Assembly (NCBI GenBank): GCA_021783235.1
Contig: JAJXUD010000001.1
Location: forward strand, 62,001 to 126,000
Source: Myxococcales bacterium
GTDB taxonomy: Bacteria > Myxococcota > Myxococcia > Myxococcales > JAKAPL01
Reading direction: 5' to 3'
DNA length: 64,000 bases
A model generated the notes under the pieces. The model ran no database searches and had not been told where the DNA came from. It saw only the letters and a program-made list of their open reading frames with translations. This document shows positions 12,693 through 46,452 of the stretch, one piece after another. The position numbers and the translations under genes are program-made. Position 1 is the first letter of the stretch; each line of letters begins with the position of its first letter.

Positions 12693-13859
12693 TCAGGGGC
12701 TCGCGAGCGCGGGCACGCCGCCGGGCGCCGCGAAGGGGTAGACCCAGAGCGCGCGAACGCCGCCGGCGCCATACCCGACGTTCGGGGCGATCCAGCCGTG
12801 CATCGACATCCAGAGGGCGCCCGACGGGTCGGTGAAGAAGTCCTCGCCGCCCGGCCCCAGCCGAGCGCCCTCGTTGCCGACCCAGGGTCGGCTCGGGGTC
12901 TCCTTCGTGCACGGGCCGAGCGCCGAGGCGCAGCGCCCGTAGCCGATCCCGTAGCTCGCGCTCTGCCAGGCGTTCGCCGAGTAGAACACGAGGTAGATCC
13001 CGCCGACTCGGCGCATCGCGGGGTTCTCCATGACCGGGTCCTCCCACGACCCCGGGGTCCGCGAGAGGAGCGTCACCGGAGCACTCCCGGCCGCGAACGA
13101 CAGGCCGGTGGGATCGAGCCGCCGGATCGCCACGGCGTTCTCGGCGCTGGTCGCGCCACCGAGGGGCGGGCCGTCTTGACGCCAGAGGAGGTAGAGGCCG
13201 CCGTCCGCGTCCACGAATGGGCTCGGGTCGATGGACCAGTACAGTGCCGCGTCCGTGGTGTCGCAGACGAGCGGCTGGTCCCAAGAGTCGACGAAGGGGC
13301 CATCCGGAGTGGCCGCGACCGCCCGGCCGACGCAGAGCTGGCCCGGCGTGCCGGCCCGGTGGCTCGCATAGTAGAGCACATAGCTCGTCGGCCCCTGGGC
13401 AAGCACCGAGGGGGCCCACTGGAACGCGCCGCTCCCATCGGCCCAGCCACCCACGGCCGGAAGGGCGTCGCCGACCCAGCGCCAGTGGACGAGATCGGTC
13501 GAGAGCTGGTGGGGGATGTTCCAGCGCGTCCCACCCACGTCGCGGTTCGTCGAGTAGGCGTGAAACTCGCCGGCGACGCGCAGCACGAAGGGGTCGGGGA
13601 AGTCGTGGGGGAACGACGGGTTCGTCACGGCGCCCGCGTCGAAGCCGGGTGCGCCCGCGTCGAAGCCGGGTGCGCCCGCGTCGAAGCCAGCTGCGCCAGC
13701 GTCCGGCCCAGCGTCGGGTCCGCCCGCGTCGTTCGAAGAGCTCGACTCGCCCGCGTCGGCGCCACGCGGGGGCGTCGGGCCGCCGCAGGCGAAGATCGCG
13801 AGGGCGGCCACGACGAGGAGAGCCGAGGAGATGGAGCTACCGGCGGACGAAGTGGTCAC
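12693..13859 (-). CDS. GH43-like glycoside hydrolase lipoprotein
   Basis: A 388-residue protein. The signal peptide ends in ALAIFACGG (lipobox FAC). A linker of near-identical seven-residue repeats (AGFDAGAPGFDAG...) follows. The catalytic region resembles five-bladed beta-propeller hydrolases of GH43: FPDPFVLRVAGEFHAYST with the putative Asp base, WSIDPSPFVDADGGLYLLW with the pKa-modulating Asp, and SWEDPVMENPAMRRVGGIYLVFYS with the Glu acid. It would cut side chains or backbones of plant-type or microbial polysaccharides outside the cell. Substrate specificity is not readable. Confidence 0.7.
   Translation of the reverse strand: MTTSSAGSSISSALLVVAALAIFACGGPTPPRGADAGESSSSNDAGGPDAGPDAGAAGFDAGAPGFDAGAPGFDAGAVTNPSFPHDFPDPFVLRVAGEFHAYSTNRDVGGTRWNIPHQLSTDLVHWRWVGDALPAVGGWADGSGAFQWAPSVLAQGPTSYVLYYASHRAGTPGQLCVGRAVAATPDGPFVDSWDQPLVCDTTDAALYWSIDPSPFVDADGGLYLLWRQDGPPLGGATSAENAVAIRRLDPTGLSFAAGSAPVTLLSRTPGSWEDPVMENPAMRRVGGIYLVFYSANAWQSASYGIGYGRCASALGPCTKETPSRPWVGNEGARLGPGGEDFFTDPSGALWMSMHGWIAPNVGYGAGGVRALWVYPFAAPGGVPALASP
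13637..13699 (-). repeat. 21-bp tandem repeat in the GH43-like linker
   Basis: Three tandem copies of a 21-bp unit (GCGCCCGCGTCGAAGCC plus four bases) encode the seven-residue linker repeat of the GH43-like lipoprotein. The first two copies are identical and the third differs by a few bases. The unit length keeps the frame, so copy number can vary without harming the protein. Confidence 0.8.
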
Positions 13860-13952
13860 TGAAGACGCTCGGGAACTCGAGGCGTCGCCGTGAGACGCGA
13901 CGGCGGGCGGCGAACGAGCCGTTGGCCTTTGAAACGACGAGCTGAAACCTCT

Positions 13953-13975
13953 GGTGACCCCGACGGGATTCGAAC
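13953..13975. other. attL, 23-bp tRNA-Glu 3' end duplicate
   Basis: The left copy of the attachment repeat, starting GGTGACCCCGACGGG. On the minus strand the bases just outside it complete an encoded CCA after the discriminator A (TGG at 13952-13954 on the plus strand). This copy therefore appears to keep the original chromosomal 3' flank of the tRNA gene. The stretch between the GH43-like gene and here (13860-13952) holds no gene that I can support. Confidence 0.9.
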
Positions 13976-14213
13976 GCGTTTTCAGGCCGCCGAGCCCGTC
14001 CAGTCTCGTCCGCCATCCGCTGTAGAATCAAGCACTTCGGATGCACAGGTAGGGCACGGCGATCCTACCTCGTCGGCCCTCGACGGCCGAAACTGTCACC
14101 ACGTCACCACCGAGCTCGAAAACGCCCTGGCGAACCTCGACCAGGGCAGGGTGGATCTCGCCCGCGCGGCGCTCGAGCGTGCCCTCGCTGAGCTGCGAAT
14201 GGGGGGCCAGTAG
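13976..14213 (+). other. Displaced 3' end of the integrase frame (attP right half)
   Basis: In the integrated state this stretch has no start codon of its own in the relevant frame. Its frame matches the integrase frame across the 23-bp repeat: both sites read GDPDGIRT, after which this side gives RFQAAEPVQS and continues 78 codons to a TAG at 14211-14213, directly before the terminase ATG. The last 36 codons (from VTTELENALANLDQ to LAELRMGGQ) have strong G/C third positions and helical character like real coding sequence; the first 40 do not. In the excised circle this would be the integrase C-terminus. Confidence 0.6.
14093..14112 (-). repeat. Putative integrase arm-type sites, right arm
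   Basis: Two adjacent sequences, CTGTCACCAC at 14093-14102 and GTCACCACCG at 14103-14112, are each a ten-base match to the reverse complement of the perfect 12-bp repeat CGGTGGTGACAG found twice on the other side of the crossover site. Inverted paired repeats on both arms of attP are typical of tyrosine-integrase arm sites. Binding is inferred. Confidence 0.5.
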
Positions 14214-14702
14214 ATGCCGCGCACCTGCACCATCTGCGTCCACCCCGAGCGGCAGGCCATCGACGCCGCCTTGCTTGCCGGCGAGGGGTACCGGAACGTC
14301 TCGGAACGGTGTTCCGTTTCCCTCGGGGCGCTCTCGCGGCACAGGGATCACGTCGCCCCCGCGCTCGCCAAGGCCCGCGAGGCCGTCGAGGTGGCGCGGG
14401 CTGACGACCTCCTCGGCCGCGTCCAGGGGCTCGTGCGCGAGGCTGACGCCATCCTGCGCGAGGCGCGAGGGGATGGCGAAGGCCGCGACCCCAACCTCGC
14501 GTTGAAAGCCATCGACCGGCTGACGAAGCTGACCGAGCTGTTTGCCCGGCTCGCCGGTGAGCTCCGCGAGGGCGGCACGACCGTGAACGTGGCCATCCTG
14601 ACCGACTCCCCGCAGTGGGGCGCTCTTCGCGCTCGCATCCTCGACGCACTGGCGCCGTACCCCGAAGCCCTGGAGGCGGTTCGCCGTGCCCTCGCAGGTT
14701 GA
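14214..14702 (+). CDS. Small terminase-like protein with Cys-rich N-terminus
   Basis: A 162-residue protein starting MPRTCTICVHPERQAIDAAL. The N-terminal Cys pair and the HTH-like stretch YRNVSERCSVSLGALSRHRDHV resemble proteins encoded directly upstream of phage large terminases. The middle is helical (LLGRVQGLVREADAILREA) and could form the oligomeric core that recognises packaging sites. It overlaps the large terminase gene by 17 bases. The assignment rests mostly on position and this N-terminal pattern. The ATG directly follows the TAG of the displaced integrase frame. Confidence 0.6.
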   Translation: MPRTCTICVHPERQAIDAALLAGEGYRNVSERCSVSLGALSRHRDHVAPALAKAREAVEVARADDLLGRVQGLVREADAILREARGDGEGRDPNLALKAIDRLTKLTELFARLAGELREGGTTVNVAILTDSPQWGALRARILDALAPYPEALEAVRRALAG

Positions 14703-16170
14703 AGACGCGCTCAGGAGGGACCTCCTCGCGGCCCTGGACGCCCGCCGTGGGCTCCTGGAGTGGATCCCCACGGCAACCCCTGGCTACGTCGCTCCGACGC
14801 ACCTGGGGCCCGTGGCGGCTGTCCTGGAGGGCGTCTTGCAGCGCCCGCAGAGGGCGATCGTCTCGACCCCACCGCGCCACGGGAAGACGACTCTCACGTT
14901 GCACGCGATCGCCTGGCTCTTGAAGCGAAAGCCGACCTTGCGCCTGGCTTACGTTTCTTACTCGGAGAGCATCGCCCTCTCGAAGAGCCGCGAGGCCCGG
15001 TGGCTTGCCGAGCGCGTCGGCATCAACCTCGCCGAGGGGTCCGCCAACATGCACGAGTGGCGGACGAACCAAGGCGGCGGGCTCGTGGCCACGGGAGTCG
15101 GCGGCTCGCTCACGGGGCGCGGCTTCGACGTGATCTTGGTGGACGACGTGGTGAAGGACCGACAGGAGGCGGACTCCGAGCTCATCCGGCAACGGACTGC
15201 GGATTGGTGGCGCTCGGTGCTCTTCACTCGGCTTGACCCCGGGGCCTCCGTCATCGTCATCGGGACTCGGTGGCACGAAGCCGACCTCCTCGGGACGCTC
15301 GCCACGGAACCGGGCTGGGAGGTCATCAACCTGCCGGCCATCGATGACCAGGGACGGCCGCTGTGGCCCGAGCGTTTTAGCGCGCTCGCCCTGGCCGAGA
15401 TTCGCCGGGGAGTCGGCTCCTACGTCTGGGAGGCGCTCTACCAGGGCCGCCCGAGCTCGCCCGAGGGGGGAATCTTCAAGCGCTCGTGGCTCAAGCCGGT
15501 GGCGAGCTTGCCGGAACCGATCTACACGGCCCTCTCGGTCGACTCGGCGTGGAAAACGGGCGTCGGCGCCGACTTCAGCGTCATCGAGACGTGGACCCTC
15601 TCGAACCTCGAGGGCAAGCCAGGCAGGACGGAGCCGGTGCGGCCGAAGGTTCACCCTGCGATTGAGGCCCTCTTCGAATCGCAGCGCCGCGTCGGGCTAC
15701 GCCAGCGCCACCAGGAGCAGGCGGACGACTCCCGCGGTGGACCCCTGCGCTACGACCTTCGCGACGTTTGGCGGGAGCGAGTCGAGTTGCCCGGGCTGAT
15801 CGATCGCATCGCCCGCATGGCCGACGAGCTGCGCCCCAACGTCATCTTGATTGAGAACTCCTCGAGCGGCATCGGCGCCTACCAGGTTTTGAAGGCGCGC
15901 ACCCGTTTGCCGCTCCTGCCCGTGACGGTCACGCAATCGAAGACGCTGAGGGCCGAGCTCGTCTCGCCGCTCTTCGAGGCTGGCCTCGTGCGCATCGCCG
16001 AAGGCCCATGGAACGGCGACTTCATCGAGGAGCTGTGCGGCTTCCCGAGCGCTCGCCATGACGACCAGGTTGACGCCTGTTCGATGGCGCTGGCCCACCT
16101 CCAGGGCGTCGAGGCTCGCGCCCAACGCCAGCCTGGCCTTGCGCCGGTCATCAACATCTACGGACGATGA
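14686..16170 (+). CDS. terL: Phage terminase large subunit
   Basis: A 494-residue protein from a GTG start. The ATPase part has a Walker A, STPPRHGKTTLT (about residues 60-71), a Walker B, FDVILVDDVVKD (about 147-158), and a TRWHEADL coupling-like motif. The C-terminal RNase-H-like nuclease has Asp in ALSVDSAWK (286), Glu in VILIENSSSG (390) and Asp residues in ARHDDQVDA (459-463). About 60 extra residues lie between the first two nuclease strands (about 305-365). It should drive DNA into a capsid, but no capsid genes are present here, so packaging would need a helper phage. Confidence 0.93.
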   Translation: MPSQVEDALRRDLLAALDARRGLLEWIPTATPGYVAPTHLGPVAAVLEGVLQRPQRAIVSTPPRHGKTTLTLHAIAWLLKRKPTLRLAYVSYSESIALSKSREARWLAERVGINLAEGSANMHEWRTNQGGGLVATGVGGSLTGRGFDVILVDDVVKDRQEADSELIRQRTADWWRSVLFTRLDPGASVIVIGTRWHEADLLGTLATEPGWEVINLPAIDDQGRPLWPERFSALALAEIRRGVGSYVWEALYQGRPSSPEGGIFKRSWLKPVASLPEPIYTALSVDSAWKTGVGADFSVIETWTLSNLEGKPGRTEPVRPKVHPAIEALFESQRRVGLRQRHQEQADDSRGGPLRYDLRDVWRERVELPGLIDRIARMADELRPNVILIENSSSGIGAYQVLKARTRLPLLPVTVTQSKTLRAELVSPLFEAGLVRIAEGPWNGDFIEELCGFPSARHDDQVDACSMALAHLQGVEARAQRQPGLAPVINIYGR

Positions 16171-16203
16171 ACTTCGCAGTCAAACCCGAAAGGAGAAGCA
16201 CAC

Positions 16204-16728
16204 ATGCCCGCAACCGATCCTGACTACTTCCCGCCCCCGGCGCCGCCCGAAATGCCGCCGGGGCACCCGCCGCAGACCGCATCGAGCTTCACCGAGCAAT
16301 CGCCCTGCTGGTTCGGACCGGGGATTGTCGTCGGGACACCGCGGCACGCGGCGCTGTACGAAAGGCTCGCGGCGCTCTCGGGCGTTCCAAAGCCGTTGCT
16401 CGCGGGGGCCTACCGCGGTGAGCCGGTTCCCCGCGACGTGCTGACGACGATCGCCGTCGCGGCTCGCCGACTCGGGATTGCGCCGCCGGGCGTCTTCTCC
16501 CGAGCGAGCCAGCCTGCGCCAGCGCCGACCCAGCTGACCCGCGAGGAATCCATTGGGATGGTCGCGAAGAGGAGCGACGTCGACCTCGCGACCGTTGCCG
16601 CGGTCTACGAAGGACGGCCCGTCGACAAGTTCACGCGGCAGGCGATCGTGCGCGCCGAGGCCGCGCTGCGCCGCGAGAAGCACTTGTGCCTCGACTTGCC
16701 GGCGATTCCGGCGAGGAGCCTGTCATGA
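16204..16728 (+). CDS. Hypothetical element protein with two HTH-like repeats
   Basis: A 174-residue protein with a clear ribosome-binding site (AAAGGAG eight bases upstream). The N-terminus is Pro-rich. Two similar segments, LYERLAALSGVPKPLLAGAYRGEPVPRD and IGMVAKRSDVDLATVAAVYEGRPVDK, each look like a small helical DNA-binding or docking unit of the Cro/XRE kind (helix, turn, helix, then G-x-PV). Function is unknown. It follows the terminase by 33 bases and overlaps the next gene (ATGA). Confidence 0.7.
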   Translation: MPATDPDYFPPPAPPEMPPGHPPQTASSFTEQSPCWFGPGIVVGTPRHAALYERLAALSGVPKPLLAGAYRGEPVPRDVLTTIAVAARRLGIAPPGVFSRASQPAPAPTQLTREESIGMVAKRSDVDLATVAAVYEGRPVDKFTRQAIVRAEAALRREKHLCLDLPAIPARSLS

Positions 16729-16916
16729 CGAAGCGGCCGTTGCCGGAGTGGAAGACCCTCAAGTCGTTGGCGCGCGAGCAACTGAGCGGCGAAGAGCAGG
16801 CCCGCGCCGAGAAGCAGCTTGCGGCGACGGTGGCCGAGGCGGAGAAGGATCTGTCCCCGCGTCAGTGGCGGGAGTTGCGGGCCCGGACGCGCAGGGCCTT
16901 GCAGCGCTGCTCCTGA
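16725..16916 (+). CDS. Small helical hypothetical protein
   Basis: A 63-residue protein, MTKRPLPEWKTLKSLAREQL..., almost wholly alpha-helical and charged. The ATG overlaps the stop of the upstream gene, which is the main support for this start. No family recognised. A remnant of another gene converges on it from the opposite strand. Confidence 0.6.
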   Translation: MTKRPLPEWKTLKSLAREQLSGEEQARAEKQLAATVAEAEKDLSPRQWRELRARTRRALQRCS

Positions 16917-17178
16917 GTGGCCCGCAAGGGTTCCGGCCGGGCTCCTCGGCCTCGACCGCCGCCTCGTAGCCCTCGGGGTCCGTCTTCGCGTAGCGGGCCA
17001 CGGCTTGGGCCTGGTGCGCCTGGCGCTTTGAGATCCCCGCATCGGCGGCCGCCTTCTGACGCGGAGAATGAGGTTCGGGCGCCGTAACCTGATTCCCTGC
17101 TCTGCCGACGGGCCGGGCTGTCTCCAGTTCCTCCAGGAGGCTGCCGAGCCTCTCCACCGCGCGCGCCCTGATCTTCAT
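16759..17178 (-). pseudogene. Remnant of a phage/plasmid-type regulatory protein gene
   Basis: This opposite-strand frame begins MKIRARAVERLGSLLEELE and continues with DAGISKRQAHQAQAVARYAKTDPEGYEAAVE. That pattern, KIRAxRxLGxLLxE followed by GISKxQxxxxxxLA, is familiar from small phage and mobile-element proteins. The N-terminal part expected for such proteins is absent, and the frame runs without a natural end into the antisense of the 63-residue gene. It is the only element gene on the minus strand. It is probably a decayed or inserted fragment; a short functional protein cannot be excluded. Confidence 0.45.
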
Positions 17179-17257
17179 GGCCGCGCTGCTTCTGAGCGGC
17201 CGGCGGGCTTGGGGGGCTCCCGCCGCCGACGAGGGCAAGCAGGGGTCCAAGCGGCGT

Positions 17258-17301
17258 TGACTGACGAGTCACGTCGTATTACTCTGTCACCACGAGGTGA
17301 C
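17258..17301. promoter_or_regulatory. Two palindromes before the serine recombinase
   Basis: TGACT-GACG-AGTCA (17258-17271) and GTCACC-ACGA-GGTGAC (17286-17301) lie just upstream of the recombinase ATG at 17304. The second contains CTGTCACCAC (17284-17293), the same ten bases as one putative integrase arm site. Perfect half-sites with equal four-base spacers suggest dimeric protein binding, such as autoregulation by the recombinase or control by another element protein. Confidence 0.5.
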
Positions 17302-17303
17302 GC

Positions 17304-17912
17304 ATGGACTCCGTGGCCTATCTGAGGGTTTCGAGCAAGGCGCAGGACTTCGCGATGCAGCGGGCTGCCATCGAACGGGCTGCCGCGGCGCGCGGGGACA
17401 CCATCGTCACCTGGTACGCCGAGAAGCGCAGCGGCAAGGCGCTGGCCCGGCCTGAGCTCGACCGGCTGCGCGCGGAGGCTCGCGCCGGCAAGCTTGCCAA
17501 GCTCTACGTCTTCCGGCTCGACCGGCTCACCCGCTCGGGCATCCGTGACACCTTCGAGGTGGTGGAGGAGCTGCGCGCCCACGGCGTCCAGCTTGCCACG
17601 GTGGCCGACGGCTTCGACCTCTCGGGGCCCGCCGCCGAGGTGGTGCTCGCCGTCATGGCGTGGTCGGCCAAGATGGAGCGGGTGGCCATCAACGAACGCA
17701 TCGCCGCCGCCAGGGAGCGCGTGGAGGCCTCCGGCGGTGCCTGGGGGCGTCCGCGGCGGTTGTCCGAGGCCGACGTCGCCCAGGTGGCCGCGCTTCGCTC
17801 TGCGGGCCGCTCCGTGCGCGCCATCGCCGTCGCCTTGAAGCTCCCGCGCTCGACGGTCGCCGACGCGCTCAAGTCCGTGTCCGAAAAACATGCCGCGCGG
17901 AGGGCCGCGTAA
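17304..17912 (+). CDS. Serine recombinase, resolvase/invertase type
   Basis: A 202-residue protein with a resolvase N-terminal catalytic domain: VAYLRVSSKAQ carrying the nucleophilic Ser near residue 10, KLYVFRLDRLTRSG with the conserved Arg residues, and GFDLSGPAAEVVLAVMAW. The C-terminal 50 residues (GRPRRLSEADVAQVAALRSAGRSVRAIAVALKLPRSTVADAL) form a Hin-type DNA-binding HTH. The length is normal for resolvases and invertases. It may resolve element dimers or invert a segment. No paired recombination sites are evident besides the palindromes just upstream. Confidence 0.87.
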   Translation: MDSVAYLRVSSKAQDFAMQRAAIERAAAARGDTIVTWYAEKRSGKALARPELDRLRAEARAGKLAKLYVFRLDRLTRSGIRDTFEVVEELRAHGVQLATVADGFDLSGPAAEVVLAVMAWSAKMERVAINERIAAARERVEASGGAWGRPRRLSEADVAQVAALRSAGRSVRAIAVALKLPRSTVADALKSVSEKHAARRAA

Positions 17913-17943
17913 GCCCGCGAGAGACCCCGGGCCAGCCGGGGGC

Positions 17944-17967
17944 GTCCGAGTAGGGTACTTCTCGGAC
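17944..17967. promoter_or_regulatory. Inverted repeat between recombinase and RHH gene
   Basis: GTCCGAG-N10-CTCGGAC forms perfect seven-base arms 25 bases before the ribbon-helix-helix gene. It may be the operator of that small DNA-binding protein, since ribbon-helix-helix repressors often bind palindromes in their own promoter. A terminator for the recombinase gene is the alternative, but no T-run follows. Confidence 0.4.
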
Positions 17968-17992
17968 TGATAGCCGACGGAGGCACCAACCC

Positions 17993-18193
17993 ATGCCGAA
18001 GCGCAGGAGGAAGCAGCCGATGCCAGTGACCAACGACTCGATGCTCAACGTCCGCGTGCCCCAGGAGGTCATCGACCGCCTGGAAGCCTACGCCGCCGCC
18101 CACGGCCAGCCCGGGGCGCGCTTCACCCGCGCCGACGCCGCCCGCGTGCTACTGCTCGAGGCGCTCGACCGGGCCGAGAAGCAGCAGAGGTAG
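17993..18193 (+). CDS. Ribbon-helix-helix DNA-binding protein
   Basis: A 66-residue protein with a basic N-terminus (MPKRRRKQPMPV). A strand, MLNVRVPQEVIDRL, then two helices (EAYAAAHG, TRADAARVLLLEALDRA) give the CopG/Arc ribbon-helix-helix layout. A GACGGAGG ribosome-binding site lies upstream. No toxin-like partner follows, so it is more likely a regulator of the element than an antitoxin. Confidence 0.7.
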   Translation: MPKRRRKQPMPVTNDSMLNVRVPQEVIDRLEAYAAAHGQPGARFTRADAARVLLLEALDRAEKQQR

Positions 18194-18273
18194 CGCAGTA
18201 GAAGCGGCCGCCGAGGGTGTTACGAGCACCCCCGACGGCCTGACCCACCACCTGAGCGAACAGGAGGCAGGCT

Positions 18274-18339
18274 GTGCCCATCGAAGCCCGAGTCCGCCCG
18301 TGCAGCAAGAAAACCACCAGCGCCGGGGTGACGCCGTGA
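18274..18339 (+). CDS. 21-residue micro-ORF, possibly a leader
   Basis: GTG at 18274 with an AGGAGG ribosome-binding site, ending TGA at 18337-18339, which overlaps the GTG of the next small gene. It encodes a basic, Thr-rich peptide (MPIEARVRPCSKKTTSAGVTP). The good ribosome-binding site and overlap suggest real translation, perhaps only to bring ribosomes to the next start. Confidence 0.4.
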   Translation: MPIEARVRPCSKKTTSAGVTP

Positions 18340-18467
18340 CCCACGCGCTCGCCCTGGTGGCCTCCCACGCCGCCGTCTTCGTCGCCGGCTTCATGCTCGG
18401 CCGCCGCCTCGGCTGGGGCGAGGCCCTCGCGCTCGTCCGCCGGCTCACCGGGAGGCGCCGCTCGTGA
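18336..18467 (+). CDS. 43-residue single-span membrane protein
   Basis: GTG start overlapping the previous stop. One hydrophobic segment (LALVASHAAVFVAGFML) is followed by a basic tail (GRRLG, RRLTGRRRS), as for a small inner-membrane protein with its C-terminus inside. Its stop again overlaps the next GTG. No family recognised. Confidence 0.5.
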   Translation: MTHALALVASHAAVFVAGFMLGRRLGWGEALALVRRLTGRRRS

Positions 18468-18754
18468 CCCGCGAGGCCCCAGGCTGGGACCGGCTCGGCC
18501 GACGCAAGCCACAACTGCGGCTGCGCGGGCGTGGTCGCTGGCTGCGCGACGCCCTGCGACTCCTCGTTCTCCTCCGCACCGGCCGCTGGAGCGTCGCCGA
18601 GCTTGCCGCCGAGCTGGGGCTGCACCGCCGCTCCGTACACCGCATGCTCCAGCAATTCGCCCGCGTCGGCATCGAGCTGGAGCGGCACCCCGAGGGGAAG
18701 GAAGTCTTCTGGCGCGTGGATGGCGAAGCGCTGCGCCGGCTTCTCGGGCTCTGA
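18464..18754 (+). CDS. Winged-helix HTH regulator
   Basis: A 96-residue protein with GTG start overlapping the membrane-peptide gene. The core LRLLVLLRTGRWSVAELAAELGLHRRSVHRMLQQF is a DeoR/IclR-like winged helix-turn-helix, followed by a wing-like strand (GIELERHPEGKEVFWRV). It probably controls element gene expression. Confidence 0.65.
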   Translation: MTREAPGWDRLGRRKPQLRLRGRGRWLRDALRLLVLLRTGRWSVAELAAELGLHRRSVHRMLQQFARVGIELERHPEGKEVFWRVDGEALRRLLGL

Positions 18755-18774
18755 ACCCCGAGCGGCGGAACAAG

Positions 18775-18803
18775 TTGACAAGTTCCGGCGTATCGCGTAG
18801 CCT
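18775..18803 (+). promoter_or_regulatory. Candidate promoter before the replication genes
   Basis: A perfect -35 hexamer TTGACA (18775-18780) is followed after 17 bases by TAGCCT (18798-18803), a weak -10. TTGACA is uncommon in this GC-rich sequence. It sits between the winged-helix gene and the small gene at 18875, so it could drive the replication and integration genes. Confidence 0.4.
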
Positions 18804-18874
18804 GCTAGCGCTGGCCACCGGACGACCGGAGCGGCAACAGGACGCGCTGTTTCGCGCTCGTTGCGAGGCTCCAC

Positions 18875-19126
18875 ATGGCCGGTGGTGGCATCCCCCCGCT
18901 AGACCCTTTCGAACGCCGTCGCCTTCTGCTTGAGGCCGACGTCGACGAGAAGACTTGGCGTAGATTTTCGCTTGGCGCGAACGTTCGGCCGAGCTCGCGA
19001 CGCAGGATTCTGAGAGCGTTGGCGACGCTCGGCTTGCCGACTCCCACCTTCCAAAACTCGAACGCCCCCGGCCAGGGGGGCGCTCGGCACAGCCGCGGAG
19101 GCGCTCGTGCCGCCGCCGCTCGTTAG
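18875..19126 (+). CDS. Small DNA-binding-like element protein
   Basis: An 83-residue protein. RRRLLLEADVDEKTWRRFSLGANVRPSSRRRILRALATLG resembles small phage or element proteins with an XRE-like helical core (helix, W-x-R, NVRP, R-x-R-I-x-x-AL). The C-terminus is Gly/Ala/Arg-rich. The ribosome-binding site is weak. It may regulate replication genes; function is not known. Confidence 0.55.
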   Translation: MAGGGIPPLDPFERRRLLLEADVDEKTWRRFSLGANVRPSSRRRILRALATLGLPTPTFQNSNAPGQGGARHSRGGARAAAAR

Positions 19127-19162
19127 CCAGTCTAGCACGAGCGCGGGCCGCCGGAGCGACGC

Positions 19163-21496
19163 GTGACCCGCTCCGACTTCCTCGGCCGCCTGGCCGACGT
19201 CCGCGCCCGCAACGAGACGCAGGCCGAGGCGCGCTGCCCCGCTCACGAAGACGGCCGGCGCTCGCTTTCGGTTGGCGCGGGCGAGGACGGCCGGATCCTG
19301 CTCCATTGCCACGCGGGATGCGAGCCCGCCGCGATCGTCTCCGCGCTCGGGCTCTCGCTGCGCGACCTCATGCCGGAGCGGCCGACGATGCCGAGCGGCA
19401 ACGGCCGCGGGCGCATCATCGCCACCTACGACTACCGCGACGAGACGGGCGCACTGATCTCTCAGGCGATCCGATTCGAGCCGAAGGGCTTCTCGCAGCG
19501 GCACCGCGCGAGTCCCGGGTGTCACCCCGACAAGAACCCTGACCGCGAGGGGTGGTGCTGGACCATCAAGGGACTTCCCCGCGTCGTCTACCGGCTGCCC
19601 AAGGTGCGCGCTGCCATCGAGGCGGGGCGCGACATCTTCGTGGTCGAGGGCGAGAAAGACTCTGACAACCTCGGGGAGCTGGGGCTCGTCGCGACCTGCA
19701 ACGCCATGGGCGCGGGGAAATGGGAGCAGGCACACACCGACTGCTTGCGCGGCGCCGCGAACGTCTACGTCATCCCCGACAAGGATGCGCCCGGGCGCAA
19801 GCACGCCGCGGCCGTCGCTGCTTCTCTGCACGCCGCCGGGATCTTCGTCGCGATCGTCGAGCTGCCGGGCGCCGGCAAAGACGCGAGCGACTGGATCGCG
19901 ACGGGCGGGACGCGGGCCGAGTTGGAGCGGCTCGCAGCAGCAGCGGCTGAGTGGACGCCAAGCGCGGCCGACTTGCCTCCCGGTGCTACCGACCTGGCCC
20001 ACGATGCACCGGCTGCCGTTGTCGGCGAGGGTGTCACCGAGTCGACCCTGGCCGAGCGGTTGATCGCGTCCTACGGATCGGACCTCCTGTTCTGTGGGCC
20101 GTGGCGGAAGTGGCTCATCTACCGCGGCGGCCGGTGGGAGGAGTGCCCGACGCCCGCGCCAGTGCAGCAGAGGACGATCCGGCTCATCCGGGAGGCACGC
20201 GCACAGGCGGCGCGTGGGAGCGGGGCCGAGGCGCAGGCCGCGGTCAAGGCGCTCTTCGCCGCCGAGAAGCGCTCGGTCCGGGATTCGATCGTGGCCCTGG
20301 CGGCGCACGAGGCCGCCGTTCAGGCCGCGCCTGGCGAGTTTGACCGCGATCCCCTTCTGCTGAACGTGCTCAACGGCACAGTCGATCTCCGCACCGGAGA
20401 ACGCCGGGAGCACCAGCGGGCGGACAGGCTCACGAAGATGGCGCCGGTGGCCTACGATCGCGCCGCGGCGGCGCCCGCCTGGCAAGCGTTCCTCGAGCGC
20501 ATCTTCGCCGGCAACCCGGAGATGCTCGCCTTCATCCAGAGGGCGATCGGGTACTCCCTCACCGCCGACACGGGCGAGCAGTGCCTCTTCATCTGCTGGG
20601 GTGCCGGGGCCAACGGCAAGAGCACGCTGCTGGAGGCGCTCCGGTTCGTGCTGGGCGACTACGCCCGGGCCGCGCCCCTCGACCTGTTCGTGGCATCGAA
20701 GGGCGACCGTCACCCCACCGAGCTCGCGACCCTCGCGGGCGTGAGGTTCGCGCCGTGCGTGGAGACCCGCGAAGGCGCACGCCTGAACGAGACGCTGTTG
20801 AAGCAGCTCACGGGTAGCGACACTGTGCAGGCTCGGCGCATGCGGGAGGACTTCTGGGAGTTCCAGCCGGTCGCCAAGCTCTGGCTCGGGACGAACCATC
20901 GGCCGACGATCCGCGGTACCGATACCGCGATCTGGCGGCGCGTGCGCCTCATCCCCTTCACCGTGACGATCCCGCCCGAGGAGCGGGACCGGGAACTGCC
21001 GGCGAAGCTCCGCGCAGAGGCGCCAGGCATCCTGCGCTGGGCCGTCGAGGGGTGCCTCGCGTGGCAGCGGGAGGGCCTCCGTCCGCCGGCAGACGTCACC
21101 TGCGCCACGGACGCTTACCGGCAGGATGAGGATCGGCTCGGGGCGTTCATCGCCGAGTGCTGCAAGACGGGTCCCGGGTTCGTCGCGAAGTCGGCCGACC
21201 TGTTCGCCGCGTACGCGCGGTGGGCTGAGGACCGGCGCGAATTCGTCGGCACGGCCAAAGCCTTCGCGCTGGCCCTCGAAGAGCGGGGTTTCGCCGCCGG
21301 AACCTCTGGGCACGCGAAGACGTCGATCCGTAAAGGAATCGGGCTCTTGGAAGGCGTGCGGGTCGATGCGGGTCGATTGGAAGTATTTCCCCATGTAGCG
21401 CGCGCATCTAGAAATCAACCGGATGACCGACCCGCATCGACCCGCAACGGTCTGGACGACGACGGCCAGGGGGACTTCGAGGAGGTCCGCCCGTGA
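19163..21496 (+). CDS. Primase-helicase (CHC2/TOPRIM plus D5/SF3 helicase)
   Basis: A 777-residue protein from a GTG with an upstream GGAG. Order: a zinc-binding motif (CPAH at 25-28, CHAGC at 49-53); a TOPRIM-like domain (IFVVEGEKDSD near 155, VYVIPDKDAPG near 197); a D5 N-terminal region; then a superfamily-3 helicase with Walker A GAGANGKSTLLE (about 478-489), Walker B-like VRFAPCVETRE, and LWLGTNHRPTIRG as sensor region. It should prime and unwind DNA for autonomous replication of the excised element, like the large Rep proteins of P4-type satellites. The stop overlaps the next GTG. Confidence 0.9.
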   Translation: MTRSDFLGRLADVRARNETQAEARCPAHEDGRRSLSVGAGEDGRILLHCHAGCEPAAIVSALGLSLRDLMPERPTMPSGNGRGRIIATYDYRDETGALISQAIRFEPKGFSQRHRASPGCHPDKNPDREGWCWTIKGLPRVVYRLPKVRAAIEAGRDIFVVEGEKDSDNLGELGLVATCNAMGAGKWEQAHTDCLRGAANVYVIPDKDAPGRKHAAAVAASLHAAGIFVAIVELPGAGKDASDWIATGGTRAELERLAAAAAEWTPSAADLPPGATDLAHDAPAAVVGEGVTESTLAERLIASYGSDLLFCGPWRKWLIYRGGRWEECPTPAPVQQRTIRLIREARAQAARGSGAEAQAAVKALFAAEKRSVRDSIVALAAHEAAVQAAPGEFDRDPLLLNVLNGTVDLRTGERREHQRADRLTKMAPVAYDRAAAAPAWQAFLERIFAGNPEMLAFIQRAIGYSLTADTGEQCLFICWGAGANGKSTLLEALRFVLGDYARAAPLDLFVASKGDRHPTELATLAGVRFAPCVETREGARLNETLLKQLTGSDTVQARRMREDFWEFQPVAKLWLGTNHRPTIRGTDTAIWRRVRLIPFTVTIPPEERDRELPAKLRAEAPGILRWAVEGCLAWQREGLRPPADVTCATDAYRQDEDRLGAFIAECCKTGPGFVAKSADLFAAYARWAEDRREFVGTAKAFALALEERGFAAGTSGHAKTSIRKGIGLLEGVRVDAGRLEVFPHVARASRNQPDDRPASTRNGLDDDGQGDFEEVRP

Positions 21497-21954
21497 CCCC
21501 CGGCGAGGCCATCGCGACCGCCTACGCCCTTGGCGGCGATGTGCTCCTCGCGGGCGGCCTACGGTTCCGGCTGCCCCGCGGCAAGCTCACCCTCGAGCTA
21601 CAGGATGCCCTGACCGAGCACTGCGACGAGCTTTCCGCCCTGGAACGCCACCGCCGTCTCGACGAGGGCGCCGCCGAGCTCGACGCCGCGTTCACCCGGC
21701 TCGACCGGCTCGGCCGCTGGCGCTCGGAGAATCTCGCCACCTGCGTCGACCTCGGGCGCCGGCTCGACGTCGAGGCCCGGCGCTGGATGGACGGCGAGAC
21801 CGACGACCCGGCGGCGTGGAAGACAGCCCTGAGCGCCTGGGAGGCCGCCTGTGCGAAGAGCGGCCCCAGGGCCACCCAGGGCGCTTCGGCGCATCCTACG
21901 GGCAGCCAGGGGGCGCAGGGCGCGCTCTGGGGGACGACAGGGGGCCGGTCATGA
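21493..21954 (+). CDS. Hypothetical protein with TubC-N-like domain
   Basis: A 153-residue protein with GTG overlapping the primase stop. The N-terminus, VLLAGGLRFRLPRGKLTLELQD followed by ALTEHCDELSALE, resembles the TubC N-terminal docking domain, a small fold of two strands and helices best known from polyketide/peptide synthetases. The rest is helical and Trp-rich, with a low-complexity Gly/Ala tail. Here it may serve protein docking. The similarity is by eye only. Confidence 0.5.
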   Translation: MTPGEAIATAYALGGDVLLAGGLRFRLPRGKLTLELQDALTEHCDELSALERHRRLDEGAAELDAAFTRLDRLGRWRSENLATCVDLGRRLDVEARRWMDGETDDPAAWKTALSAWEAACAKSGPRATQGASAHPTGSQGAQGALWGTTGGRS

Positions 21955-22286
21955 CCGACCACATCCGCCGAGTGCCTGCGCCCCGTGGGGAGGCCGCGCC
22001 CGATCCGGGCAGCTACCGGCAGCGCGGCAACGGCGACATGCGCCCCTCGAGCTACCACGCCGTGCAGCGCGAGCTCTGCCGCTTGCAACGCGCCAGCGGG
22101 GAGGTCCGATTCGACGTCTGCACCGGCAAGAGCGGGCGGCCGTTCGTCAGGATCCAATTCTGGAGGCGGGACGGGCGCGGTGCCTTGGTTCCGGGTGGAC
22201 ACTGGACTGCGGTGCATATCGACGAGCTGCCCGAGCTCTCGCGGCTGTTCGAAGACGTCGCCCGTGATTCGCGGAGGGCGCCGTGA
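21951..22286 (+). CDS. Hypothetical element protein
   Basis: A 111-residue protein whose ATG overlaps the preceding stop. After a polar N-terminus, the core (EVRFDVCTGKSGRPFVRIQFW, HWTAVHIDELPELSRLFEDV) looks like a small alpha/beta fold. No family recognised. It forms part of the overlapping primase-to-integrase gene chain. Confidence 0.6.
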   Translation: MTDHIRRVPAPRGEAAPDPGSYRQRGNGDMRPSSYHAVQRELCRLQRASGEVRFDVCTGKSGRPFVRIQFWRRDGRGALVPGGHWTAVHIDELPELSRLFEDVARDSRRAP

Positions 22287-22636
22287 TCTTCGACGAGGCC
22301 TCACTGCGGGCCCTCATCCGCGAGGAGCTGCGTGCCGTGCTCCGCGAGGAGCGCGCTCTGATGCCAGCGCCGTCACGCTGGGACGGCAAGCTCTACCTCA
22401 CGCTCGAGGAGGCCGGCCAGATCGTGGGCGTGGACTACGAGACCGTGCGCGGCTGGGTGAAGTCTGGCGAGCTGCCGCAGCACGGGAAGGGGAGCCGCAT
22501 TGTGCGCGTGCGCCGCGACGAGCTGGAGGCGTTCCTGCGCCGAGGCGGGGCCGAGCGTACGACCTCCGAGGTAGACTTGGACGAGAAGGCCCGGCAGATC
22601 GTTGCCGGCCACATCGGCAAGGTGAGGTCCGCGTGA
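22283..22636 (+). CDS. Excisionase-like HTH protein
   Basis: A 117-residue protein with GTG start overlapping the previous stop and its own stop overlapping the integrase GTG. Residues 38-95, LYLTLEEAGQIVGVDYETVRGWVKSGELP followed by RIVRVRRDELEAFL, form a MerR-like winged helix as in HTH_17/excisionase proteins. The adjacent integrase and overlap support a role as directionality factor for excision. Confidence 0.75.
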   Translation: MIFDEASLRALIREELRAVLREERALMPAPSRWDGKLYLTLEEAGQIVGVDYETVRGWVKSGELPQHGKGSRIVRVRRDELEAFLRRGGAERTTSEVDLDEKARQIVAGHIGKVRSA

Positions 22637-23973
22637 GCGCCAACAAGTCCAAGCGCTGGGAAGGCATCAACCGCCGCGGCAACAAGCTGTGGTGGAACTA
22701 CCGCCTCCCGGACGGCGAGCGCGTGTTCGAGCCCTCCGGCTTCGAGGCGGGACAGGAGGCCGAGGCGCACGCGCTGCTGAAGAAGATCAAGGCGCAGTTC
22801 GCGGCCGCGCGACGCCTTGGGGTCACCTCTGGGCCGGTCACGGTGCGGGCCTTCGCCGCCCAGTGGCTCGATGGGCGCAGGGATCTGCCCAGCCACAAGG
22901 CCGACGAGGGGCGGCTGCGGCTCCACGCGCTACCCGATCTGGGGCGCCTGGCAATCGGGGACGTGAAGCCGCGGCACCTGGTCGAGCTCGTCGCCGGCTT
23001 GCGCGCCAAGGGCGAGCTGTCGCCGCGCAGCATCCACCACGTCTACGGGCTGCTGCACGTCATGTTCCGCGACGCCCAGCTCGAGGAGCTCATCGCGGCG
23101 AACCCGTGCATCCTCACGAAGAAGCAGCTTGGGCAGAAGCGCGACAAGGATCCCGAGTGGCGCGCGACCGCGATCTACAGCCGCGACGAGCTCGAGGCCC
23201 TGATCTCAGACGCGCGCATCGCCGCCGACCGGCAGTTGCTCTACGCCCTTGCCGGGCTCGCGGGCCTGCGGTTCGGGGAGATCGCCGGGCTCTGTTGGCG
23301 GCACTACGACCCGGACGCGAGGCCGCTCGGGCGCCTGGTGGTGGCCAACTCGAACGACCGCGAAGGGACGAAGACGGGCGTGACCCGCGAGGTGCCCATC
23401 CACCCGACGCTGGCGGCGATGCTGGCCGCGTGGAAGCTTTCGGGCTGGGCCGAGCTGTTCGGCAGGTACCCCGGGCCCGACGACTTCCTGCTCCCTTCGA
23501 GGCGGGCCGTGCGCGTGCTCGACGACGGCGCCGAGGCCCCAGGCATGCGCAACAAGCACACCGCGCTCGAGGTGCTCCACGACGACCTGGCGAAGCTGGG
23601 GCGACGCCAGCGGCGCTTCCACGACCTGCGGCGCACGATGATCTCGCTCGCGCGAGCCGACGGCGCGCGGCCGGACATCCTCAAGACCGTGACCCACGGG
23701 CAGAGCGGGAACATCCTCGACGTCTACACGACCCTGCCATGGGAGGCCGTCTGCACCGAGGTCCGCAAGCTTCGAGTCGAGCGCTACGAGGGCAGGGTGG
23801 TGGAGCTGCCGAGGGTCGCGCAAGTGGCCGGAATGACGTCCGGCCATCGCGGCGGTGGTGACAGCGGTGGTGACAGTCTCTCGGAAGCCTTCTGCCACAA
23901 GGGAAAAAACGGTGACCCCGACGGGATTCGAACCCATGTACCCAGCGTGAGAGGCTGGTGTCCTAACCGTTAG
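22633..23973 (+). CDS. int: Tyrosine integrase with attachment site inside its 3' end
   Basis: A 446-residue tyrosine recombinase from a GTG overlapping the excisionase gene. An arm-binding-like N-terminus and a core-binding domain (about 70-160) precede the catalytic domain with R213 (AGLRFGE), K247 (GTKTG), H330/R333 (HDLRRT), H355 (VTHGQSG) and nucleophile Y365 (DVYTT). The last 20 residues (GDPDGIRTHVPSVRGWCPNR) are antisense of tRNA-Glu, and the TAG at 23971 lies inside the tRNA gene. In the excised circle the frame stays open and would give about 512 residues. Confidence 0.93.
   Translation: MSANKSKRWEGINRRGNKLWWNYRLPDGERVFEPSGFEAGQEAEAHALLKKIKAQFAAARRLGVTSGPVTVRAFAAQWLDGRRDLPSHKADEGRLRLHALPDLGRLAIGDVKPRHLVELVAGLRAKGELSPRSIHHVYGLLHVMFRDAQLEELIAANPCILTKKQLGQKRDKDPEWRATAIYSRDELEALISDARIAADRQLLYALAGLAGLRFGEIAGLCWRHYDPDARPLGRLVVANSNDREGTKTGVTREVPIHPTLAAMLAAWKLSGWAELFGRYPGPDDFLLPSRRAVRVLDDGAEAPGMRNKHTALEVLHDDLAKLGRRQRRFHDLRRTMISLARADGARPDILKTVTHGQSGNILDVYTTLPWEAVCTEVRKLRVERYEGRVVELPRVAQVAGMTSGHRGGGDSGGDSLSEAFCHKGKNGDPDGIRTHVPSVRGWCPNR
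23853..23876 (+). repeat. Putative integrase arm-type sites, left arm
   Basis: Two perfect tandem copies of CGGTGGTGACAG within the 3' end of the integrase gene, starting 58 bases before the att core. Inverted partial copies lie at 14093-14112 on the other arm. Paired repeats on both sides of the crossover site suggest integrase arm-binding sites. In the protein they encode the GGGDSGGDS stretch. Confidence 0.55.
23911..23933. other. attR, 23-bp repeat in the tRNA-Glu 3' end
   Basis: The right copy of the attachment repeat. It covers the T-arm and 3' acceptor strand of the complete tRNA-Glu gene. The base beyond it changes the encoded CCA seen at attL into CCG, and a run of six A (23904-23909) on the plus strand gives a T-run after the tRNA on the minus strand. 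Confidence 0.9.
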
Positions 23974-23984
23974 ACGACGGGGCC
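23913..23984 (-). tRNA. tRNA-Glu (CTC)
   Basis: The minus strand folds as a full cloverleaf. The acceptor strand GGCCCCG pairs with CGGGGTC with one G-T pair, the D-stem is GTCT/GGAC, and the anticodon stem CCAGC/GCTGG closes loop CTCTCAC with anticodon CTC. The T-arm has loop TTCGAAT and the discriminator is A. The 3' CCA is not encoded in this copy (CCG follows), a result of element insertion. Confidence 0.93.
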
Positions 23985-45675: not shown

Positions 45676-46452
45676 CTATCGCCAGCTCGACCGAAAGCCG
45701 TGGGCCCGCCAGCCGCCGGCGGAGAGCTCCTGGAAGAGCAGGCCGCGGTAGACCATGGCGTAGTGGGCGAGGGCGAGCACGAGCGGAACGTTCCAGAGCG
45801 AGGCGCCCTGGGCGAGCGACGGGCCGAGCAGGTAGGCGCCCTCTAGGGTGAAGAGCGAGGGCAGGATCACCATGAGGTCGCGCGGCTCGACTCCCCGCGG
45901 CCCGAAGGCGAGGGCGACGAGCGCGAAGCCGAGCGCCAGGTTCGGGACGAACCACTCGACCCAGTGCTCCTGCACGAAGCGAAAGCTCGTGGCGACGAGG
46001 GCGAGGGACATGCCCGGCGAGCGGCCCTGGTAGATGATCTCGGGGACCGGGTTCAAGAAGACGGCGATGAGCAGCCCATAGGCCGCGAGCACGAACGGCC
46101 CGTGATCTCCCGCGCCCTGGCTCAGGCTGCGCGCCACGAAGCCGCCGATCCAGAGCACGAAGAGGACGCCGATGACGTCGTTCAGGAAGGTCGGGACGCC
46201 CCGCCAGAGGTCGTCCCACGAGAGCTTGCCCCCGGAGACCGCGAGGGCGAGCAGCTGAAGGTAGCTCGCGATGCAGGCGGCCTCGAGCAGCCCCAAGAGG
46301 AAGCCGCCCGCCATGCCCAGCCGGCCGAAGATCGTCGCCCCGAACGCCATCGCGACCGCGTACAGGACGACGGCGAGCGCCACCGGCCACGCCTTGACCG
46401 CGCGGCGGGCGGCGAGGGCGGCGATTCGGGCGAGGAGGCGCGCGTAGGCCAT
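45676..46452 (-). CDS. Multi-span membrane protein of unknown function
   Basis: A 258-residue protein with about seven hydrophobic segments (VALAVVLYAVAMAFGATIFG, IGVLFVLWIGGFVARSL, LLIAVFLNPVPEIIYQG). No signature recognised. It ends in a TAG directly before, and in frame with, the DedA-like coding region, so the two are surely linked in translation. A transporter-like or lipid-related role is possible but unsupported. Confidence 0.65.
   Translation of the reverse strand: MAYARLLARIAALAARRAVKAWPVALAVVLYAVAMAFGATIFGRLGMAGGFLLGLLEAACIASYLQLLALAVSGGKLSWDDLWRGVPTFLNDVIGVLFVLWIGGFVARSLSQGAGDHGPFVLAAYGLLIAVFLNPVPEIIYQGRSPGMSLALVATSFRFVQEHWVEWFVPNLALGFALVALAFGPRGVEPRDLMVILPSLFTLEGAYLLGPSLAQGASLWNVPLVLALAHYAMVYRGLLFQELSAGGWRAHGFRSSWR

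Follow-up and report, generated by a model that had tools for sequence, protein, structure and literature searches.

The 64,000-nucleotide stretch of Myxococcales DNA analyzed here (the window) very probably carries, at 13953-23933, a 10-kb integrative element at a tRNA-Glu gene, with a tyrosine integrase of the Mx8 IntP type that is predicted to exchange its C-terminal tail upon integration. An exact 23-bp repeat, GGTGACCCCGACGGGATTCGAAC, marks both ends of the 9.96-kb element (Table 1). The copy on the right coincides with the 3' end of the tRNA-Glu gene, read antisense, and a search of the 4.58-Mb assembly at up to 2 mismatches found no third copy. Both copies encode GDPDGIRT in the same frame of the integrase, as the initial annotation had pointed out. 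In the chromosome, this frame stops at 23973, 12 codons after GDPDGIRT and in antisense tRNA, giving a protein of 446 aa. Joined as in an excised circle, it runs for 78 codons after att to the TAG at 14211-14213, giving 512 aa. The sequence of both junctions therefore predicts two integrase forms with different C termini, a long one from the circle and a short one from the chromosome, in agreement with the initial annotation, whose positions and lengths all proved correct; integration replaces the C terminus of the protein by host-encoded residues. A contig spanning the circle junction (23933/13976) was not found in the assembly.

The protein matches the integrase family of PHROGs (phrog_1, E=5e-39). 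Its catalytic residues (R213, K247, H330/R333, H355, and Y365) are all encoded upstream of att, and because of this the short form should keep catalysis. The other genes of the element include a large terminase, a D5-type primase, a serine recombinase, and HTH/RHH genes; no capsid, portal, or tail gene was recognized among the scanned open reading frames (ORFs) of 13953-23933. To the left of the element, the host gene at 12693-13859 (minus strand) contains a 21-bp tandem repeat at 13630-13703 that encodes repeated APGFDAG-type residues.

Table 1. Features of the element and its attachment sites (positions in the window).
Feature	Position	Strand	Remarks
Left att core	13953-13975	+	Exact repeat; two copies in genome
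Integrase tail, joined in circle only, 78 codons plus TAG	13976-14213	+	Linker of ~42 codons, conserved distal block of ~36 codons
Inverted copies of the arm-type repeats, CTGTCACCACGTCACCACCG, P' arm, inside tail	14091-14112	-	~120 bp after core
ORF directly after tail stop, probably small terminase	14214-14702	+	From position and overlap with large terminase only
Large terminase	14686-16170	+	PF03237/PF17289; phrog_38, E=1.5e-91
Probable excisionase, HTH_17/MerR-like	22283-22636	+	4-nt overlap with int; placed like Uoi in Mx8
Short (integrated) form of integrase, 446 aa, starting at GTG	22633-23973	+	Ends in 12 codons of antisense tRNA-Glu
Two direct arm-type repeats, GGTGGTGACA, 12 bp apart, P arm, inside int	23852-23876	+	Start 58 and 46 bases before core
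Right att core	23911-23933	+	Inside integrase frame; 3' end of tRNA-Glu; exact repeat
tRNA-Glu (CTC), attachment target	23911-23984	-	Kept whole at right end of element

The integrase gene holds more of attP than its core. Direct repeats stand ahead of the core, and ~120 bp past it they recur in inverted orientation, just before the conserved distal block of the tail; the linker, with its low GC3, is the stretch between the core and the P' arm. Repeats flanking the core in this way are probably the arm-type sites expected of a tyrosine integrase. Since the core, the P arm, and the P' arm all fall within int, the gene would enclose the whole of attP. In most other elements of the family, as well as in Mx8, the core is likewise flanked on either side by repeats within coding sequence, each element having a repeat sequence of its own, and the annotated repeat of Mx8, TGTGACAGCGG, resembles that of the window. 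We considered GTSACC as a universal arm motif and rejected it, as it is present in the window and absent from most relatives; the layout is common, not the sequence.

According to the initial annotation, the last 36 codons of the tail look truly coding, and their composition bears this out. GC3 is 0.60 in the linker of ~42 codons and 0.86 in the distal 36-37 codons, where composition is of the coding type. The openness of the frame is in itself insufficient evidence: dinucleotide shuffles of the region remained open for as long in 38% of trials (P=0.38), and the 13 elements with resolved att sites, combined by Fisher's method, gave P=0.10, single elements ranging from 0.08 to 0.55. These single-element values, together with the low GC3 of the linker and the conserved layout of the arm sites, would fit an explanation in which only DNA is conserved, as attP arm sites, and a GC-rich composition leaves the frame open by chance. 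We consider this very unlikely, as of the three forward frames that of the integrase stays open longest in 10 of the 13 elements (P=0.0016) and the distal block is situated past the arm sites, with coding GC3, protein similarity, a pN/pS below 1, and stops at gene overlaps. As for protein similarity, the tail is 45% identical (E=5e-9) to its counterpart in another element, which occupies tRNA-Lys in the same genome, and elements at different tRNAs were found to have homologous tails. For the distal block, three independent pairs taken together gave a pN/pS of 0.64 (95% interval, 0.48-0.84); the single pairs gave 0.59, 1.04, and 0.51, and the value of the window's own pair, 0.59 (0.33-1.13), does not fall significantly below 1. 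In 7/13 elements, the stop of the tail either overlaps the following gene or abuts on it (-8 to +10 nt), and a viral contig (L010) carries an uninterrupted int gene of 498 aa whose stop overlaps the next gene by 4 nt (-4). Because of tail homology, purifying selection on the distal block, and stops placed at gene junctions, we infer that the tail is a real protein segment, found in the circle only and, judging from these comparisons, conserved as protein in the family.

It could also be asked whether the block belongs to the integrase at all. It heads the terminase-side genes, and a chance 107-aa ORF that begins in host sequence (13890) extends over it in the chromosome, as might be expected of an independent small gene lying upstream of the terminase. 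The only in-frame ATG, GTG, or TTG codons of the window tail are codons 58 and 74 of 78; these lie inside or after the conserved block and therefore come too late to start it independently. Moreover, the uninterrupted int genes of Mx8 and of L010 contain the corresponding tail, and a separate gene is less likely still than chance openness. Two other lines of annotation were discarded. Tail identity compared in other reading frames was not discriminating, one reverse frame reaching 50%, and matches of the tails to DUF7169 and TPR were below cutoffs and not common to the tails.

Relatives of the integrase were sought in 195 genomes of the phylum and in viral contigs, in one genome-contig scan, and in phage records, and for 27 relatives the upstream DNA was scanned for att pairs over as much as 60 kb. 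Among 27 different family integrases directly followed by a tRNA or tmRNA gene, 24 run in frame into that gene (23 classed as overlapping and one whose frame runs off a short locus), and three stop before it, so the overlap is not essential. There are ten kinds of target, namely tRNA-Glu, -Lys, -Leu, -SeC, -Asp, -Val, -Gln, -Arg, and -Gly and tmRNA. All three frames relative to the tRNA occur, and the frame is therefore not dictated by the target. The initial annotation had looked to related elements for stops or frame breaks in the tail; at several tRNA/tmRNA genes the frame stays open for 73-117 codons after att in 12 of the 13 att-resolved elements (the window included) and for 38 codons in the remaining one. 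For several other relatives, either the contig ended or att was not found. The left att of one of them (G002_C70) was not found, its contig ending before the site, and for another (G057_C112) a tail-like stretch at 45889 was rejected as the left end, there being no att there.

Nine of the 13 elements measure 8.7-15.6 kb, a size typical of phage satellites, and the other four are prophage sized (35-53 kb). The small elements have no gene content in common except xis-int and, in some, a primase. Taken together, these sequences indicate that the Mx8-type layout is the rule in the family, on small and prophage-sized elements. In a tree of the family, which is too diverse and too incompletely sampled to date the origin of the overlap, Mx8 falls inside and the three nonoverlapping cases need two changes. 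Two family integrases that stop before a tRNA/tmRNA gene, L076 (G155:C56) and L054 (G029:C41), would offer natural controls for the effect of the overlap; in the G155 element, int and tRNA-Asp are separated by a GC-rich inverted repeat that resembles a terminator. The second family element of the window's own genome, 9.3 kb long and located at tRNA-Lys (L045/L046, G000:C128:14001-39373), has two left att-like copies ~1.1 kb apart, which may be a tandem remnant or a second element.

The genes on either side of the junction also deserve attention. The gene overlapping the start of int matches PF12728 (E=2e-13) and the excisionase family phrog_66 (E=1e-9), and its homologues adjoin int in 14 other elements. 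At the other end, the initial annotation had placed the tail stop directly before the ATG of a terminase gene. The coordinates are correct, the TAG of the circle-joined integrase being followed directly by ATG 14214 (TAGATG); the ORF at 14214-14702 has no match in Pfam or PHROGs. It is probably the small terminase subunit, because of its position and its overlap with a clear large-terminase gene. The circle would thereby apparently join xis, int, and the terminase-side genes into one co-directional run, which integration would cut. No consensus promoter was found in 13900-14300, although the consensus may not match promoters of the host organism. It is conceivable, though in our estimation unlikely, that throughout a family of Myxococcota elements integration at attP both swaps the integrase tail and disconnects the far-end genes (here terminase) from the xis-int operon, such that packaging genes are expressed only from the circle.

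These features suggest a cycle. In the circle, int would encode the 512-aa protein with the conserved tail, and this long form presumably carries out integration. Integration would leave the tail at the far left, where the tail itself offers no start codon ahead of the conserved block, and would give the integrase 12 final residues read from antisense tRNA-Glu. By analogy with Mx8, the short form may be less active while keeping its catalytic residues, and a weaker enzyme could limit excision until the excisionase, the HTH protein encoded upstream, is made. Excision would then restore the long form and join xis-int to the terminase-side genes. It is also quite possible, if in our judgment not the better bet, that the tail is needed for integration (e.g., for arm-site binding or intasome assembly) and that its loss is a by-product of having attP in the gene, with no regulatory role. 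The tail is conserved, the arm sites force retention of the region as DNA, and a switch is not essential to the family, as three relatives do with a stop ahead of the tRNA; a by-product would accommodate all of this. Against it, the properties of the integrase reportedly change with the swap in Mx8, the relative that has been tested (PMC6070905). Usually mentioned as an oddity of one or two phages, the Mx8 layout proves common in a family of Myxococcota integrases at many tRNA and tmRNA genes. In genome annotations, such integrases therefore end in host-derived sequence, and their true C-terminal segment is to be found at the opposite end of the element.

For the swap, the initial annotation had drawn an analogy to mycobacteriophages. 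The principle, an attP within a gene whose product changes its C terminus, is sound, and the closest system proved to be the phage Mx8, in which attP lies in the integrase's own gene, and not the BPs repressor. Among 50,697 phage records, Mx8 IntP was the closest phage integrase (42% identity, 86% query coverage, E=8e-68), and the published Mx8 att core is located within the IntP coding sequence. That attP lies inside int in Mx8, with a resulting change of C terminus, was published in 1996 and 1999, and the swap alters integrase properties without inactivating the enzyme (summarized in PMC6070905); the integrase of another Myxococcus phage, Mx9, is reported to integrate on a similar principle (PMC6070905). 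The window element shares with Mx8 IntP (prophage form IntX/IntR) a homologous integrase, an att core in int, a target at a tRNA 3' end, host codons that replace the C terminus on integration, a small excisionase gene overlapping the start of int, and repeats around the core. It differs in size (10 versus 49 kb), in its tRNA-Glu target, and in its shorter tail, which gave no BLASTP alignment with that of Mx8. The tails of two 50-kb prophages of the family (G086 and G088) do align with the Mx8 tail.

In BPs-type mycobacteriophages, attP is likewise inside a gene, that of the repressor rather than the integrase, and integration shortens the product (PMC4557955). The virally encoded form of that repressor is destroyed by way of an ssrA-like tag; none was seen in the integrase tail of the window. 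The Islander database paper names the enzymes of Mx8 and SSV as integrases whose genes reach across attP (PMC4383910). In this respect the window integrase resembles the SSV-type archaeal enzymes. In the SSV type, integration splits and disrupts the integrase gene, whereas the catalytic residues of the window integrase stay in one piece. The conjugative element Tn916 has circularization-dependent expression, as excision joins a promoter-bearing region to genes at its other end; in the window the genes joined would be terminase-like, and an effect on their expression may be supposed by analogy. An attP within int and the accompanying C-terminal swap are thus already known from Mx8, and what is new, as read from these sequences, is how widely the family shares the layout and that the tail present only in the circle appears conserved as protein.
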